Assembly (NCBI GenBank): GCA_035936835.1
Contig: DASYVT010000224.1
Coordinates: forward strand, 1 to 33,343
Length of the DNA: 33,343 nucleotides
Reading direction: 5' to 3'
DNA from: Candidatus Methylomirabilota bacterium
GTDB lineage: Bacteria > Methylomirabilota > Methylomirabilia > Rokubacteriales > CSP1-6
Made by a program: the position numbers and the translations under genes
Shown: positions 7,230-29,575 of the stretch, in pieces
Position numbering within the stretch: the first letter of the stretch is position 1
Layout of the letters: the number at the start of each line of letters is the position of its first letter
Notes under the pieces: model-generated
The model's database searches: none
Told to the model about the DNA's origin: nothing
The model's input: only the letters and a program-made list of their open reading frames with translations

Positions 7230-7239
7230 AAACGGATGG

Positions 7240-8229
7240 TCATCGGATCACCTGGTCGGCGCGGCCGCTGAGGGACGGCGGCACGGTCAGGCCCATGGCC
7301 TTTGCCGTCTTGAGGTTCAGGACCAGCTCGAAGATCGTCGGCTGCTCGACGGGCATCTCCGCGGGCTTGGCGCCCTTGAGGATCCTCTGCACGTAGCCGG
7401 CCGCGCGGTGATGGATGTCGACAATGCTGGGCCCGTAGGAGACAAGCCCGCCCGCATCCACGAACTCGCGGATCTCGTAGACGGCGACGAGACGGTGTCG
7501 CCCCGCGAAAGCAACAACGCGCGCGCGCTCCGCGACCAGCAACGGGTCGTCGTCAACGAGGAGGGCGCCCGCGCGGCTCGTCCGGATCGCCTCCAGCGCG
7601 GCATCGAGCCGGCCCGCCTCCCGCACGCCGAAGTCCTCGATCTCCACGCGGAGCCTCGGGGCCAGGCGCTTGAGCGAGGCCAGCTCCTCGACGCTGGATG
7701 CGCTGCCGGGGTTCCACAGGTAGGCGATCCGCTTCACCTTGGGGTTGAGCTCCTTGATGAGCTCGAGCCACTTGCCGTTGAAGTCGTCGCCGGTCGCCAG
7801 TGACAGGCCCGTGATGTTCCCGCCCGGGCGCGCGAGGCTCTTGGCGAAACCCGAGCCCACGGGGTCGGTCGAAGTCGAGACGATGGGAATGGTCTTGGTC
7901 GCCTGCTGGGCCGCGTGCGTGACGATGGTGCCCGGCGTGACGAGAAGGTCGAGCTTGAGCGCCACCAGCGCGGCGAAGATGATCGGCAGGCGGTCGGGCC
8001 TGCCGTCGGCGTAGCGGTACTCGATGACGAGGTTCTTCCCCTCGACGTAGCCGAGCTTGGCGAGACCCCGCTTGAGCCCGTCCAGCGTCGTGGCGTCCGA
8101 GCCCGCGGGGCCGAGCCACACGTAGCCGATGCGCGCGATCTTGGCAGGCGTCTCGGCATCCGCCGCCGCGAGAAACGCCGCCAGGCCCAGCAGGAGAGCG
8201 GCCGCGAGCAGGCCGCGCGCGAGGCGCAT
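7240..8229 (-). CDS. ABC transporter substrate-binding protein, PF04392 type
   Basis: A 329-residue exported receptor of the ABC_sub_bind (TrpX-like) family. A signal peptide of about 25 residues ends at AAADA-ETP. Mature landmarks are ARIGYVWLGP, LKRGLAKLGYVEGKNLVIEYR, DLLVTPGT, TIPIVSTSTDPVGSGF, SLARPGGNITGLS and, near the end, GLVSYGPS and PTIFELVLNLKTAKAMGLTV, all characteristic of the family. Members bind tryptophan or other small organic ligands; most are untested. Only three bases separate it from the peroxidase-related gene upstream. No permease or ATPase is adjacent. A second member of the family is the integron cassette gene at 25193. Confidence 0.92.
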   Translation of the reverse strand: MRLARGLLAAALLLGLAAFLAAADAETPAKIARIGYVWLGPAGSDATTLDGLKRGLAKLGYVEGKNLVIEYRYADGRPDRLPIIFAALVALKLDLLVTPGTIVTHAAQQATKTIPIVSTSTDPVGSGFAKSLARPGGNITGLSLATGDDFNGKWLELIKELNPKVKRIAYLWNPGSASSVEELASLKRLAPRLRVEIEDFGVREAGRLDAALEAIRTSRAGALLVDDDPLLVAERARVVAFAGRHRLVAVYEIREFVDAGGLVSYGPSIVDIHHRAAGYVQRILKGAKPAEMPVEQPTIFELVLNLKTAKAMGLTVPPSLSGRADQVIR

Positions 8230-23823: not shown

Positions 23824-24981
23824 ATGCTGAACGCCACGCGCGATCTCACGCTGCCCACGACCGTCACCGGCTCCTGGCCGCGGCCGTCGTGGTTCACCGA
23901 GGTGCTGCGGGGGCGGCCGTTCAAGGAGGCGCTCGGCGACTCGCGCTTCCGCGAGCAGTACCTGGACGCGGTCAGCTGCATCGTCAAGGAGCAGGAGCTG
24001 GCGGGCCTCGACATCCTCACCGACGGCGATTCGCGATTCGATCTCACGGTGGGCGGCAAGTCGTGGTTCTTCTACCCGATCGAGCGGCTCCTCGGCATCA
24101 CCGGCCACGTGGACCGCGCCGCGGGCGCGGGCTGGACGACGATCCAGCCGGGGCGGATCCTCTACGAAGTGATGGAGGCCTATCAGCCCGCCATCGCCGG
24201 CGAAAAGCTGCGCGGCGGGCCGCTCCAGTACGCGGCGCTCTTCAAGGTGGCACAGCGCTTCAGCGCGCGGCCGGTCAAGTTCGGCTCCATCAGCGCCCAG
24301 ACGATGGCCAAGATGATCGCCAACAAGCACTACGCCACGGACCGGGAGCTGGTGCTGGACGCCGCGGACATCATCAACGCCGAGCTGCGCGAGGTGGCGA
24401 CGGCCGGGTGCCGGGTCATCCAGGTGGAGGAGCCGCGCCACCACATCGCGGCCGCCGACGGCATCTCGGATGGCGAGCTCCAGTTTCTGACGGATGCGCT
24501 GAACCGCGAGATCAAGGGTGTCGAAACGGAAATCTGGCTGCACACCTGCTGGGGCAATCCGAGCCAGCAGCCTATCCACTGGCAGCGGCCCTCCTACGAG
24601 CGCGCCCTGCCCTACCTCCTCCAGACCGCCGCCGACGTTATCACGCTAGAATGCGCGAGCACGGGCGGGCGCGACCTGCCGCTGCTCGGGAAATACCGCA
24701 CGGACAAGAAGATCGCCATCGGCGTGGTCAACCACTCGACGGCCGCCGTCGAGCCGCCCGAGGTGGTGGCCGACCTGATCCGCCGGGCGCTGGAGTACGT
24801 GCCACCCGAGCGGCTGATCCTCTCCAGCGACTGCGGCTTCGGGCGTGAGGGCCTCTCGCGCCGCATCGCCTTTTACAAGACCGTGGCGATCAACCTCGGC
24901 GCCAACATCGTCCGGCGCGAGCTGAAGCTGCCCGAGGTGGACATCCCTGCCGCCGACCCCCGCTACACGTTCTCCGGCTGA
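23824..24981 (+). CDS. Cobalamin-independent methionine synthase-type (MetE C-terminal-like) methyltransferase
   Basis: A 385-residue protein related to the C-terminal, catalytic half of MetE. Zinc ligands are in place: His240 and Cys242 (LHTCWGNP), Glu276 (TLECAST) and Cys337 (SSDCGFGRE). Other landmarks: LPTTVTGSWPRPSWF, LDILTDGDSRFDL and CRVIQVEEPRHHI. The N-terminal half of full MetE is absent, as in core-MetE or in family members that use other methyl or thiol substrates. Homocysteine use is not proven. The ATG has GGGAGGAG upstream and TAATCT at 23796-23801. The gene ends about 100 bases before the outer end of the integron relic. Confidence 0.9.
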   Translation: MLNATRDLTLPTTVTGSWPRPSWFTEVLRGRPFKEALGDSRFREQYLDAVSCIVKEQELAGLDILTDGDSRFDLTVGGKSWFFYPIERLLGITGHVDRAAGAGWTTIQPGRILYEVMEAYQPAIAGEKLRGGPLQYAALFKVAQRFSARPVKFGSISAQTMAKMIANKHYATDRELVLDAADIINAELREVATAGCRVIQVEEPRHHIAAADGISDGELQFLTDALNREIKGVETEIWLHTCWGNPSQQPIHWQRPSYERALPYLLQTAADVITLECASTGGRDLPLLGKYRTDKKIAIGVVNHSTAAVEPPEVVADLIRRALEYVPPERLILSSDCGFGREGLSRRIAFYKTVAINLGANIVRRELKLPEVDIPAADPRYTFSG

Positions 24982-25086: not shown

Positions 25087-25158
25087 GCCCAACGAGCACG
25101 CTCAGCGGCCAGGGGCGAGCGACGCGAGCCCTTGGTCCGCTGCAGCGTGAAGTTCGAC
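25087..25158 (-). repeat. attC-like site of cassette 3 (PF04392-type receptor)
   Basis: Plus-strand arms ACGCTCAGCGGCCAGGGGC (25098-25116) and 25128-25148 pair with two extra bases and one mismatch, around the loop GAGCGACGCGA. Minus-strand end boxes are R'' GTCGAAC (25158-25152) and R' GTTGGGC (25093-25087), which fits GTTRRRY. A second box, GTTAGAC (25081-25075), lies just beyond. The site starts 34 bases after the receptor stop. Confidence 0.78.
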
Positions 25159-25192
25159 GCCCACCAGATCGTCGCTGGTTCATCAGCGTGGC

Positions 25193-26185
25193 TTACTGTA
25201 TGACCTCATCTGCCCGCGACAGGATCGACGGCGGGATGTTGAGCCCTAGCGCCTTGGCCGCGCGCAGGTTCATAACGAGCTCGAACTTCGTCGGCTGCTC
25301 GACGGGCAGGTCGGCGGGCTGGGCGCCTTTCAAGATCTTGTCGACAAAGACGGCCGCGCGCCGATTGATCTCGATGAGATTCGCGCTATAGGAGATCAGC
25401 CCGCCGGCCTCGACATAGAACCGGAGTCCATACATGGCGGGGAGCCGGCTCTTGGCAGCCAGCTCCGCGATTCGCCGGGCGTGCGGGTCGAGGAGCCCGC
25501 CCGGGAACACGAGAAGGGCGCCAGCGCGCGCGCCAGTCGCCGTCTTGAAAGCCGCCTCGATCTCGCCAGCGTCTCGAATCTCGAGCGAGAGCAGCTTCCA
25601 CCCCCGCTCCCTGGCAGCGGCTTCGGCCACCTGCCAAGACAGGAGGCTGGTCCATACCCGGAGGACCGCCACTGGCGCCGCACCCGGGACGAGCTCCTTG
25701 AGCAGCTCGAGTCGCTTCCCCGTCGTCTCTACCATCTGAAGGCTCAGCCCCGTGAAGTTCCCGCCCGGGCGTGCGAGGCTCTGAACCAACCCCTCCGCCA
25801 CCGGGTCGCCGGCGCCCGTCATGATGATGGGGATCGTCGACGTCGCCTGCTTGAGCGCGGCCAGCGTTGGCCCTGGGGCGACGATCACGTCCACCTGCAG
25901 ACGGACCAGCTCGGCAGCGAGGCTGGGGAAGTGCTCCGGTCTTCCCTCGGCCGAGCGCACCTCGGTCACGAAATGCTCCCCATACACGTAGCCGAGCTCG
26001 CGCAATCCGCGCAGGAGTGCGTTGAGGGATGGGTTCTGTGGCTGGGGCCCGACCATTTCGGAGGTCGTCACAAAGCTACCGAGGATTCCGATGCGATAGA
26101 CCTTGCGCGCGGGCTGGGCGCGGGCGGCGCGCGGCACCGCGAGGGTCCCGAGGGCGAGGCTGCCGATGAAAGCGCGCCGGTCCAT
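25193..26185 (-). CDS. ABC transporter substrate-binding protein, PF04392 type (cassette 3 cargo)
   Basis: A 330-residue receptor of the ABC_sub_bind family. It starts MDRRAFIGSLALGTLAVPRA, a Tat-like signal with a cut near ARAQ. Mature landmarks: KVYRIGILGSF, LLRGLRELGYVYGEHFVTEV, VIVAPGPTLAALKQATSTIP, GDPVAEGLVQSLARPGGNFT, and near the end GLISYSANLIEINRRAA and PTKFELVMNLRAAKALGLNI. It is a paralogue of the protein at 7240 but clearly divergent. ATG 26185 is used; GGAGG lies 12 bases upstream, slightly far. A longer start at the cassette's beginning is possible. It lies inside an integron cassette between two attC-like sites, with no permease or ATPase. Confidence 0.92.
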   Translation of the reverse strand: MDRRAFIGSLALGTLAVPRAARAQPARKVYRIGILGSFVTTSEMVGPQPQNPSLNALLRGLRELGYVYGEHFVTEVRSAEGRPEHFPSLAAELVRLQVDVIVAPGPTLAALKQATSTIPIIMTGAGDPVAEGLVQSLARPGGNFTGLSLQMVETTGKRLELLKELVPGAAPVAVLRVWTSLLSWQVAEAAARERGWKLLSLEIRDAGEIEAAFKTATGARAGALLVFPGGLLDPHARRIAELAAKSRLPAMYGLRFYVEAGGLISYSANLIEINRRAAVFVDKILKGAQPADLPVEQPTKFELVMNLRAAKALGLNIPPSILSRADEVIQ

Positions 26186-26265
26186 CAGTCGATCACGTCC
26201 TCCATTCGCAGCAGAAGCGATGCCGGCGTCCGCGGGCCACGACATGCTGGACCCTTCGCCAGTGC

Positions 26266-26335
26266 GGCGAACGTCCGCAGTCACCGGCCGGAGCGAGCGA
26301 AGCGAGCTTCGGTCCGGTGGACTGCGAAGTTCGAC
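26266..26335 (-). repeat. attC-like site of cassette 2 (NIPSNAP)
   Basis: Plus-strand arms CGCAGTCACCGGCCGGAGC (26276-26294) and 26306-26326 pair with two extra bases and one mismatch, around the loop GAGCGAAGCGA, which differs by one base from the loop of the site at 25087. Minus-strand end boxes are R'' GTCGAAC (26335-26329) and R' GTTCGCC (26272-26266). R' departs from GTTRRRY at the fourth and sixth bases. The NIPSNAP stop is 58 bases before it. Confidence 0.75.
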
Positions 26336-26393
26336 GGTGTGTCATCGCGGCCCTGGCGTTGATCGGCCGAAGCCGGGACCTCTTTCATCGCAC

Positions 26394-26825
26394 TTAACGC
26401 GACGGAGAATAGTCCGTCACCTTCATGTACACACGCTCGGGCGCTTTCGAGAGAATCTTGCCATCGGCCTCGCTGGCGTCGCGCACCTTGATCCACTCGG
26501 GATCGGCCACGAACGCCTTCCAGCTTCGGTCCGCTGCTTCCTGGCTCTCATGAGACAGAAAGTAGATGAGCGTGTTGTCCTTGCGCGCGTCGTCCGTTGG
26601 CACCCAATACATCTCGTTCCTCATGCCCTGCTTCTCGAAGAGTTTCATCGTGTGCTCGGCGAATCGCTTGTGAAGGGCCGGCAGTCGGCCTGGCAGCACC
26701 GTGTACGTCCGCAGCTCATAGACTCTGGTCTTCTTCTCCTGGCCCACGGACACGCCAGCCGCGAACCCTATCAATCCGACTGCGATCATGGCGGTCGCGC
26801 CCAAGACGAACTGCTTCGCCTTCAT
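26394..26825 (-). CDS. NIPSNAP-family protein with N-terminal membrane anchor (cassette 2 cargo)
   Basis: A 143-residue protein. The N-terminus KAKQFVLGATAMIAVGLIGF is a signal peptide or anchor, ending near VSVGQ. The rest is one NIPSNAP/dimeric alpha-beta-barrel domain: KTRVYELRTYTVLPGRLPAL, HKRFAEHTMKLFEKQGM, DNTLIYFLSHESQEAADRSW, and FVADPEWIKVRDAS. NIPSNAP proteins are widespread in soil bacteria without a known reaction; export suggests a periplasmic role. ATG 26825 has GAGGAGGAGG upstream. The gene lies alone in its cassette behind a 160-base leader rich in palindromes. Confidence 0.9.
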   Translation of the reverse strand: MKAKQFVLGATAMIAVGLIGFAAGVSVGQEKKTRVYELRTYTVLPGRLPALHKRFAEHTMKLFEKQGMRNEMYWVPTDDARKDNTLIYFLSHESQEAADRSWKAFVADPEWIKVRDASEADGKILSKAPERVYMKVTDYSPSR

Positions 26826-26875
26826 TGTGAACCTCCTCCTCGTTGACTTTCGTTAACGGCTGTTCCACGCGATTC

Positions 26876-26944
26876 GGCGTCCCTCGAAGGGACGCCCGAC
26901 CGAGGAATGGGCGCCCACCCTGGGCGGCGCCGCGCGCGGCGCCG
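26876..26944. repeat. Two strong palindromes in the NIPSNAP cassette leader
   Basis: GGCGTCCCT (26876-26884) and AGGGACGCC (26888-26896) form a nine-pair hairpin with a three-base loop. CGGCGCCGCGCGCGGCGCCG (26925-26944) is a perfect 20-base palindrome. Both lie in the untranslated leader of the NIPSNAP cassette, on a strand that must be transcribed to reach it. They could be a terminator, a decayed attC or regulatory RNA. Confidence 0.5.
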
Positions 26945-26988
26945 TTTCTCAGAGCGTTCTGCCTGAGCCATTCAACGTCTCGTAAGCC

Positions 26989-27078
26989 GCCGAACGCTAC
27001 GGCTGAGCGGCCGGCGGGCCGCCGATGACTGCTCCGTCGAGCCGCCTTCCCGCGGTCCGCTCCAGCCGTTCGTTAGAG
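26989..27078 (-). repeat. attC-like site of cassette 1 (amino-acid-type receptor)
   Basis: Plus-strand arms ACGGCTGAGCGGCCG (26999-27013) and CGGTCCGCTCCAGCCGT (27053-27069) pair fully apart from two extra bases in the second arm; the loop is long. Minus-strand end boxes are R'' CTCTAAC (27078-27072) and R' GTTCGGC (26995-26989). Ten bases at R'' are the exact complement of the first ten bases of the cassette at 27918-27909, as expected if one circle was opened there. The receptor stop is only five bases before R''. Confidence 0.82.
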
Positions 27079-27083
27079 AGCTT

Positions 27084-27884
27084 TCATTGAGATCCGGCCT
27101 CAACGGCGCCACGTAATCCAGCCCGCTCGACCGCGGCTTTGACGAGCCCCTCGGACCTCGCGTCCTCCACGAATTTGCGCGCGTAGGGCATCGCGATATC
27201 GCGTCCCTTTGGGAGGGCCATCCCCTGCCGCTCGGTGGCGAAGCGGCCCTCGAGGACCCGAGAACCGGGCAACTGATCCGAAATTTGGAAGAGGTTAGCC
27301 TTGTTCGCAGCAAACGCGTCGGCTTTCCTCGATTTCAGCATCTCTACTCCGCCGGCAAGGCCTGGGCCTCGGACGACCGTAGCGTTCTTTAGTTCTCGAG
27401 ATAGAAAGATATCGACTGCGCCCTTCTCCGGGACACCAACTCGAATCCCTGGCCGGTCAACATCGGCCAACGTCGAGATGGAAGAGCCGCCTGGGACAAG
27501 GTAGCCCAGTTCGATTTCTATGTGCGGCGCGGTGAAGTCCATATCCTTCGTCCGCTCAGGGAGAATGGCAAGGAAGGCGATGTCCCACTGGCCAGTCCTC
27601 GCGTTGTCGACAAGGGCCCCGATTGATGGGTACACAACCGGCTCAAACGGGACCCCCATTCGTCGCGCGAATTCTTTCCCGAGATCAAATCCCACTCCTT
27701 TCATCTCACCCGACGCGGGGTCCTTTATCACGGATGCGGGACCGCCAAGATAGAGGCCCACGCGAAGCTTGCCGGTTGGAGCCAAGGCCTGTCGCGCTTC
27801 CGGAGTAGGTGCAGTGACGGCAGCTGCACAGCCTGTGAGTAGCACGCCAAGTATCGCAACCATCGGCCAATAAGTTATTCGCAT
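27084..27884 (-). CDS. Lipoprotein amino-acid-type ABC receptor (SBP_bac_3; cassette 1 cargo)
   Basis: A 266-residue receptor of the polar amino-acid/family-3 class. Lipobox LLTGC places the modified Cys at residue 19. Landmarks: GKLRVGLYLGGPASVIKDPA, MKGVGFDLGKEFARRMGVPF, DIAFLAILPERTKDMDFTAP, and the end YARKFVEDARSEGLVKAAVE. Such proteins bind amino acids or related acids for an ABC importer or act as sensors. GC content in the gene is visibly below that of the window. ATG 27884 follows GGGAGGG. The cassette begins 33 bases upstream, just after the presumed attI. No transporter genes are next to it. Confidence 0.9.
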   Translation of the reverse strand: MRITYWPMVAILGVLLTGCAAAVTAPTPEARQALAPTGKLRVGLYLGGPASVIKDPASGEMKGVGFDLGKEFARRMGVPFEPVVYPSIGALVDNARTGQWDIAFLAILPERTKDMDFTAPHIEIELGYLVPGGSSISTLADVDRPGIRVGVPEKGAVDIFLSRELKNATVVRGPGLAGGVEMLKSRKADAFAANKANLFQISDQLPGSRVLEGRFATERQGMALPKGRDIAMPYARKFVEDARSEGLVKAAVERAGLRGAVEAGSQ

Positions 27885-27911
27885 TGCACCCTCCCAGAAG
27901 TAACCGTGGCT

Positions 27912-28058
27912 CTCTAACTAGAATTCGGCTGACCTGCGTAGCACCGCTGACGAAGCGCGTGCCGACAGCGTAACACGGTGCCCGGTATCATAGTTCTAGC
28001 TCGATTAGCATTGAAGAAGGCGCACTTCGCCGGCGCGTACAGGCTGCCGGGCGCCTTG
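27912..28058 (-). other. Presumed attI region with cassette promoter-like sequence
   Basis: The stretch between the integrase stop and cassette 1 holds no open frame that I can support. Its end is the core GTTAGAG on the minus strand (27918-27912), where cassette 1 joins. A promoter pointing into the array can be placed at TTCAAT (28015-28010), 17-base spacer, TATGAT (27992-27987); the -10 is strong, the -35 weak. The region is AT-richer than its surroundings. Calling it attI rests on position alone. Confidence 0.5.
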
Positions 28059-28301
28059 CTATGCAGACCTCGGATACACGATATGCGAGGTCTGCGTATC
28101 CGGTGGAGGGTCGGGCTCGGCGTCATGGGGCGTCATCCGAACCGCGGGACTCTGGACCCCGGCTGGCCCGGGGTTGAGGACGTGCGTGTAGATCATGGTG
28201 GTGCTCACGTCGCGGTGCCCGAGGAGCTCTTGGACGGTTCGGATGTCGTGGCCGTCCTCCAGCAGATGGGTTGCGAAGGAGTGGCAGGAGGCGCGCGCAT
28301 T
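28059..28301 (-). pseudogene. Integron-type tyrosine recombinase (IntI-like), C-terminal fragment
   Basis: About 81 codons up to TAG (28061-28059). The sequence reads [20 protein letters not shown], then [20 protein letters not shown] and [12 protein letters not shown], the hallmark end of integron integrases with the LGH His and the catalytic Tyr of IYTH. The N-terminal 250 or so residues are missing: the sequence breaks off about 15 bases before the stop of the receptor gene at 28328. Inside the fragment the normal CHTLRHSFATHL appears as CHSFATHL, lacking four residues that include the catalytic Arg, perhaps by deletion between two CAC repeats. It cannot be active. It reads toward the cassettes. 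Confidence 0.88.
28062..28095. repeat. Inverted repeat at the end of the integrase fragment
   Basis: GCAGACCTCG (28063-28072) and CGAGGTCTGC (28086-28095) pair perfectly around a 13-base loop. It overlaps the last codons of the integrase fragment. It may serve as terminator of intI or as part of attI; no T-run follows. Confidence 0.45.
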
Positions 28302-28327: not shown

Positions 28328-29575
28328 CTACTCGCAGTACTTGCAGGGCGGGTAGTTGCGGTCGTAGACCGGGGTCTTCAGATACTCGTCCCGGTTGTAG
28401 GTCCAGAACTGCGACACGTTCGGGTACGTATAGATCACGCTGTTCTGCAGCTTCCCGCCCACCCGCTCGACCCTGCGGATGTAGACGTTCTGGATCGGGT
28501 TGCCCAGGTCGTCCATCTTCATCGGCCCGCGCGGTTCGTCGCTGAACTCCACCTTCCGGAGCGCGGCGAGGAGCTTCTCCTTGTCCTCGGCCTCCCCGTT
28601 GATGCTCCTGAGCGCCTCGTAGTAGAAGCGCCCAGCCGTGTACCCCTCGGCGGAGTACAGAGACGTGCCGCGGCCATAGCGCTTCTCGTAGGCAGCCGAG
28701 AACTTCTTGTTGGCCGGGTTCTCCAGCACGGAGCTGTAAATGAGGGAGGTCATGACCCCGACGGCCTCGTCACCCATGCTCTTCAGGACGTTCTCGTCCG
28801 TCAGCGTCCCGATCCCGACCAGCGGAATCTTTCCCTTGAGACCAGCGTCGCTCCACGCCTTTACGAAGCGCGGGGAGAGGCCGCCTGTGTGGCACGCGTA
28901 GACGCCATCGATGTCCTTCTTCAGCGAGGTCAGGTACGGCGCGTAGTCCTGCATGTTCAACGGGGTCCAGATCCGCTGCACGACCTTGCCGCCCAGATCT
29001 TCGAACACGCGCTGGAACCCGCCGTTGGACTCCCAGCCGAACGCGTAGTCCATGCTGATCGTGGCCATGCGCCGCAGCTTGAGCTGCTTGTAGGCATAGT
29101 CCCCGAGCGGGTGCGTCGCCTGGCTGCCGGTGAAGGACGTGCGCACGACCCACCGCACCGGCTTGCGCTGGGTGATGTCGTCCGGCGCCATCACGGGGTA
29201 GACGGTCGGGATCTTGTTCTGCTCGAGGTACGGCGCGATGGCATAGCCGGTGGCGGCCAGCAGCCCGCCGGCGACAGTGTGCACATTCTCCTGCTCCACG
29301 AGCCGCCGCACCTTGGTCAGGGCGCCGGTCGGCTCCGGATCCGAATCCTCCACGATGACCTTGACCTCGCGGCCGGCCACCTTGTAGCCGACCTCTTCCC
29401 AGAAGAGCGTGAACCCGTCCGTCATGTCCTTCCCGGTCTGGGAAAAGTTGCCGGTGAGCGGCCCGAAGTACCCGATCCGGATGGGGCCGCGGTCGGCGGC
29501 CCGGCCCAGCCGTGGCCTTCCGGCCATGCCCACGGCGGCTGCGCCCATCGCGACAAGGAATCGACGTCTACGCAT
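28328..29575 (-). CDS. Branched-chain amino-acid/urea-type ABC receptor with Tat signal
   Basis: A 415-residue receptor of the LivK/UrtA (Peripla_BP_6) class. [20 protein letters not shown] is a twin-arginine signal with a cut near RAA-DR. Landmarks: [44 protein letters not shown]-like [36 protein letters not shown], and [16 protein letters not shown]. The C-terminus is odd, ending YPPCKYCE with a CxxC. Members of this subgroup bind amides, urea or aromatic acids. ATG 29575 has AAGGAGA upstream. Its stop lies about 27 bases from the start of the truncated integrase, so the array was broken at or near this gene. No liv-type permease is nearby. Confidence 0.93.

Follow-up and report, generated by a model that had tools for sequence, protein, structure and literature searches.

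The window analysed here (33,343 nucleotides; C224, one of the contigs of a 4.12 Mb draft genome assigned to Candidatus Methylomirabilota) almost certainly carries an integron gene cassette inserted at attI, in an array that has the form of a reverse integron. The first bases of this cassette and the R'' end of its attC site are exact complements over ten bases, and are the two halves of that attC in its closed-circle form. This pairing finding is right and ordinary; the setting is a less ordinary variant of the integron. On what is perhaps an even chance, we hypothesize a distributed integron, in which about ten attI docks, with intI gone or cut down to a stub in most of them, would still be loaded and unloaded by one intact integrase working in trans, with intI decaying, attI kept, and the content of the docks turning over between sister species.

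The paired sequences are GTTAGAGAGC (27918-27909, minus strand) and GCTCTCTAAC (27081-27072, minus strand), each a single-copy 10-mer in the window, and both the letters and the coordinates of the complement as originally predicted were verified. The former (27909..27918) consists of the G of attI and the first nine bases of cassette 1, and is the R' half in the circle; the latter (27072..27081) is the R'' half of attC 1. The R'/R'' consensus is GTTRRRY/RYYYAAC, and cassette 1 is off consensus at base 7 on both sides, two departures that by sequence compensate each other. The GTTRRRY consensus is as given in PMC2674596. The complement might have been a chance match in a G+C-rich contig, and by length alone 10-base complements are indeed not rare here: at spacings of 300-2000 bases the strand has 278 exact ones, close to the mean of 215.5 in 40 first-order Markov controls. 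The pair in cassette 1, however, is the only one of these led by GTT (control mean 0.55), and it falls exactly on sites that are defined otherwise, by attI homology and attC structure. The evidence is therefore the position of the match, its length alone being weak. The relation also recurs in 77 cassettes against permutation controls (below), and the anchored and permutation tests together reject a chance origin, which we regard as vanishingly improbable.

The boundaries of the cassette follow from comparison with other attI sites of the same genome. The attI region of the window (27918..28105, minus strand) ends in the G of G|TT and has a 93% identical copy on contig C31 and a 73% identical one on C162, with the similarity in both stopping at G|TT; the first cassette is thus joined to attI at that point, exchange lies between G and TT, which makes 27917-26995 the cassette proper. 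The original prediction that the complement fixes both boundaries to the base is borne out for the 5' boundary by the attI comparison, but the complement alone leaves the exchange point unfixed. So delimited, cassette 1 (26995..27917, minus strand) is 923 bases long and runs from TTAGAGAGC, placed by the attI comparison, to the G of the next core site, placed by the attC model match; in the closed circle TTAGAGAGC would adjoin the G at 26995, which would yield an attC with ten paired end bases. Its gene (27084..27884, minus strand) encodes a protein of 266 aa of extracellular solute-binding protein family 3 (PF00497, E 4e-11).

Two further cassettes follow on the same strand. Cassette 2 (26272..26994, minus strand) carries a NIPSNAP-family gene at 26394-26825 (PF07978), and cassette 3 (25093..26271, minus strand) an ABC_sub_bind gene (PF04392, E 1e-38) in the frame 25193-26284, whose true start codon probably lies further inside the frame. 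The corresponding sites, all on the minus strand, are attC 1 (26989..27078; 64 bits, E 9e-11, and only 16.9 bits in the wrong orientation), attC 2 (26266..26335; 68.3 bits) and attC 3 (25087..25158; 73.2 bits), the final site of the array; these scores come from our own covariance model, and all three sites were among the ten same-genome sites from which it was built. All three form bulged hairpins (64-73 bits), with R''-L'' and L'-R' arms of which one contains an unpaired base. Upstream of attI lies what remains of intI, a C-terminal piece of about 50 residues (28137..28286, minus strand) covering positions 265-314 of the 315 of TIGR02249 (84 bits); the 50-residue piece alone scores 87.1 bits and matches PF00589 as well. 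The N-terminal five sixths of intI are absent from the window dock.

We measured the relation between each cassette start and its own R'' across a wider set of arrays. The model, built from ten sites of the window genome, was searched against 25 loci and 80 intI loci from named records, which gave 77 later cassettes with a defined start and a detected neighbour less than 3.5 kb away, a sample in which missed attC sites would lower the match; a minus match in L106 (overlapping a stronger plus match) and one at 1-74 of L061 (cut by the locus end) were excluded. Over bases 4-9, own starts matched their own R'' at frequencies of 0.79, 0.92, 0.79, 0.79, 0.73 and 0.68 (n=77), as against 0.38, 0.79, 0.41, 0.62, 0.34 and 0.30 for non-own pairs. 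Bases 4-7 of own pairs gave 254 matches versus 170.6 +/- 6.0, and bases 8-10 gave 134 versus 76.7 +/- 6.5, a value reached in none of 2000 permutations. Complements of 10/10 anchored on GTT/AAC were found in 14 of the 77 own pairs, the non-own rate being 0.0031. At base 10, own pairs stood at background (0.34 versus 0.35); nine bases are therefore to be expected, and the relation is genuine and extends over nine bases, while the tenth base in cassette 1 is luck. That these are integron cassettes and that their matching ends reflect the R'/R'' relation of cassettes in closed form, as first proposed, thus holds, with the relation recurring across the 77. According to PMC2727003, R' and R'' of most cassettes pair over 9-11 consecutive nt, further than the 7-nt boxes, and our ten bases, with a population signal of nine, agree with this; we see no substantive difference from the relation as reported there, except that here the start was measured against its own R'' in integrated arrays. 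The complementarity being already published, its main use is in placing cassette boundaries.

The match to the own R'' is 10/10 in cassette 1 and 8/10 in each of cassettes 2 and 3. The two mismatches that had been attributed to the latter pair are thus present over ten bases, but the 7-mers quoted in their support differ by one each, the sole mismatch of GTTCGGC with GTCGAAC being a G.T wobble. Reading such mismatches as a sign of age finds no support, as match and array position are uncorrelated (Spearman -0.07, P = 0.57, n=77). At the ten attI sites of the genome, first cassettes match at 6, 1, 4, 5, 5, 2, 5, 5, 6 and 4 of the six bases 4-9, a mean of 4.3/6 versus 4.7/6 for later cassettes. 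Two of these ten, on C31 and C147, match the first detected attC poorly, which an undetected attC could explain. Folding the cassette ends with their own starts, also suggested at the outset, was distinctive for cassettes 1 and 3 but not for cassette 2. In the circle, the bottom strand of attC 1 reaches -34.8 kcal/mol versus -26.0 in the array, and that of cassette 3 reaches -31.2 versus -24.0 kcal/mol, with none of 29 other starts as low in either case; cassette 2 folds at -27.2 kcal/mol in the circle and -27.6 in the array, and 3 of 29 other starts are as low.

The sequences, boundaries, layout and statistics above are direct readings of the DNA, onto which the recombination chemistry established for integrons can be mapped. 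Circular cassette 1 would carry an attC running from the R'' half GCTCTCTAAC to the R' half GTTAGAGAGC, the two pairing on one strand; an integron integrase would cut between G and TT and join the cassette to attI, after which the R' half (TTAGAGAGC) would stand at the 5' end of the cassette and the R'' half at its 3' end. Since insertion would split the halves in this way, a cassette start should be complementary to its own attC. With the local intI reduced to a 50-residue stub, the enzyme at the window dock would now have to come from elsewhere, and the simplest source, we infer, would be the intact intI on contig C123. The points that weigh against insertion at attI as the best explanation are the 8/10 matches of cassettes 2 and 3, the poor ones on C31 and C147, the fold of cassette 2, and the derivation of the attC model from same-genome sites that include the three of this array. 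The minus strand of attI showed no sigma-70-like promoter for the cassettes, Rfam gave no match at gathering scores, and no tRNA was found. Just behind the intI remnant, at 28050-28100, lies an inverted repeat, GCAGACCTCG...CGAGGTCTGC, that is conserved with minor changes in C31, C162 and G002:C3 and could be an integrase or regulator site.

The surroundings of the array have relatives in other genomes. Close orthologues of the upstream gene at 28328-29575 occur in four genomes with no platform following them, but the gene order around them differs, so that none provides a clean empty site for the window dock. This gene and the one at 23824-24981, which in the window converge on the integron, are neighbours in G028 and G006, where they are divergent and have no platform between them. 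No recent donor of cassette 1 was found, the best other protein match in 57 genomes being 47% identical. The NIPSNAP gene of cassette 2 (26382-26839) is 86% identical to a gene in G064:C123, at which the model found no attC; the similarity is limited to the gene plus some dozen bases either side, possibly a view of a gene becoming a cassette. ABC_sub_bind-like sequence recurs in the window (25193-26185 and 7239-8055) and in several cassettes, and 52 of 60 genomes of the order contain matches to the cassette DNA of the window, mostly to this part of it. Locus L187 (G036:C15), from another family of the order, has at 1837-1894 a site that aligns with attC 2, followed by the start of a gene like that of cassette 3, at 84%.

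The stub, attI and attC sites all lie on the minus strand; the intI remnant therefore points in the same direction as the cassettes, with attI behind its 3' end. Among the 80 intI loci, 35 had attC sites and could be classified, 12 with this reverse layout and 23 with the usual one, and none were mixed; the other 45, in which no attC was found, did not enter the count. In a tree of IntI with 31 rows, from which five of the 35 loci (L018, L034, L043, L080 and L093) were omitted for a stop in the matched stretch and to which the IntI of the genome itself was added, a single branch separates the two layouts (support 91/93; 86% of bootstrap trees). Among named relatives, the one closest to the intact integrase of the genome is from Rokubacteria (81% for L018).

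Copies of attI are spread over many contigs of the genome (C224, C31, C162, C123, C141, C147, C114, C46 and C88, and weakly C223), making about ten docks, most of them without any intI; a further contig, C170, has an attI copy without a detected attC. An intI above the family cut-off is found on C123 only. Stubs recognised by the family model remain on C224, C141 and C147, and some twenty codons survive on C31. Neither C114 nor C46 gives an intI match; the two have a stretch of about 275 bases in common (88%), which runs beyond what they share with C147 and into non-intI sequence present in both, so their common ancestor was probably already without intI, and their first cassettes diverge from the exchange point onward. 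In another comparison, G003:C393 has an intI where C162 is without about 958 bases, attI being kept at 94.7%. In G038:C201 (L105), intI has an internal deletion, with query residues 19-149 running directly into 300-353.

Loss of intI is usually taken as freezing of an array. Three docks of the genome without intact intI can be compared on both flanks with the same-genus genome G001: C31 with C152, C147 with C29, and C141 with C64. Their flanks are 91-97% identical over kilobases, except on the upstream side of C141, which is contig C85 (joined by a 141-base overlap) and is matched by segments of 267, 94 and 143 bases (88-97%). The interiors hold different cassettes, with similar scraps of at most 45 bases only, some of the differing interior lying beyond the last detected attC, where it may be non-cassette DNA. 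The best pair is C141 and G001:C64: both lack the same N-terminal part of intI, identity across stub and attI is 97.4% as far as the exchange point, and their first cassettes differ after it. The last attI bases of G001:C152 and G001:C29 are off the usual form, making these weaker pairs, and homology between C31 and G001:C152 ends four bases before the exchange point. An integrase acting in trans is the simplest account that these comparisons suggest for turnover at docks without intact intI.

Two other readings have to be weighed against it. The window platform might be a dead fossil, its cassettes having entered with a full local intI and none having moved since the truncation. This is a serious possibility, though we lean against it: a 50-residue stub is all that remains of the local intI, the window dock has no copy orthologous on both flanks in the genomes compared, and loss of intI in Xanthomonas accompanies stable arrays, as reported in PMC12444791; yet the genome holds one intact intI, and other docks in it without intact intI differ in their cassettes from their sister-species orthologues. 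Those differences might in turn have arisen from homologous recombination swapping entire arrays among strains or docks, or from assembly joins across the repeated 200-base attI, without any integrase in trans. The genomes are fragmented drafts, and within as well as between species attI copies of a given type agree at about 90-96%, but we think this origin rather less likely than not: in the three dock pairs both flanks match (88-97%) and the interior alone differs, which is impossible from a single mis-join, and at C141 and G001:C64 the change falls at G|TT, with first cassettes that match their own R'' at 8/10 and 10/10, respectively. If docks without intI do still swap cassettes, as in the distributed integron that we hypothesize, one integrase would serve many insertion sites, each with its own chromosomal neighbours, and activity may be commoner than assumed among arrays classed as pseudo-integrons or CALIN.

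Among the open-licence PMC papers that our searches listed, we recognised none treating Rokubacteria integrons or intI-less chromosomal attI docks that exchange cassettes; several of the elements described here nevertheless have known counterparts. Pseudogenes of intI and several intI per genome are reported in PMC2426708, and reverse integrons are known from Treponema (PMC3607928, PMC7691350). As described in those two sources, Treponema integrons share with the present array codirectional intI and cassettes, and an attI behind the 3' end of intI; here, by contrast, the closest named IntI relative is from Rokubacteria, the docks are many per genome, and intI is mostly truncated or absent. The window dock is not a complete integron, as no intact intI stands beside its attI; it is a cluster of attC sites without a nearby intact integrase, as in CALIN, yet it has an attI, which goes beyond the CALIN definition. 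In lacking a working local integrase it resembles the CALIN and the integrons with inactivated intI of Xanthomonas, and PMC12444791 states that CALIN can be mobilised in trans. The Xanthomonas arrays described there become stable, whereas the docks described here keep attI, and three of them differ in cassettes between sister species.
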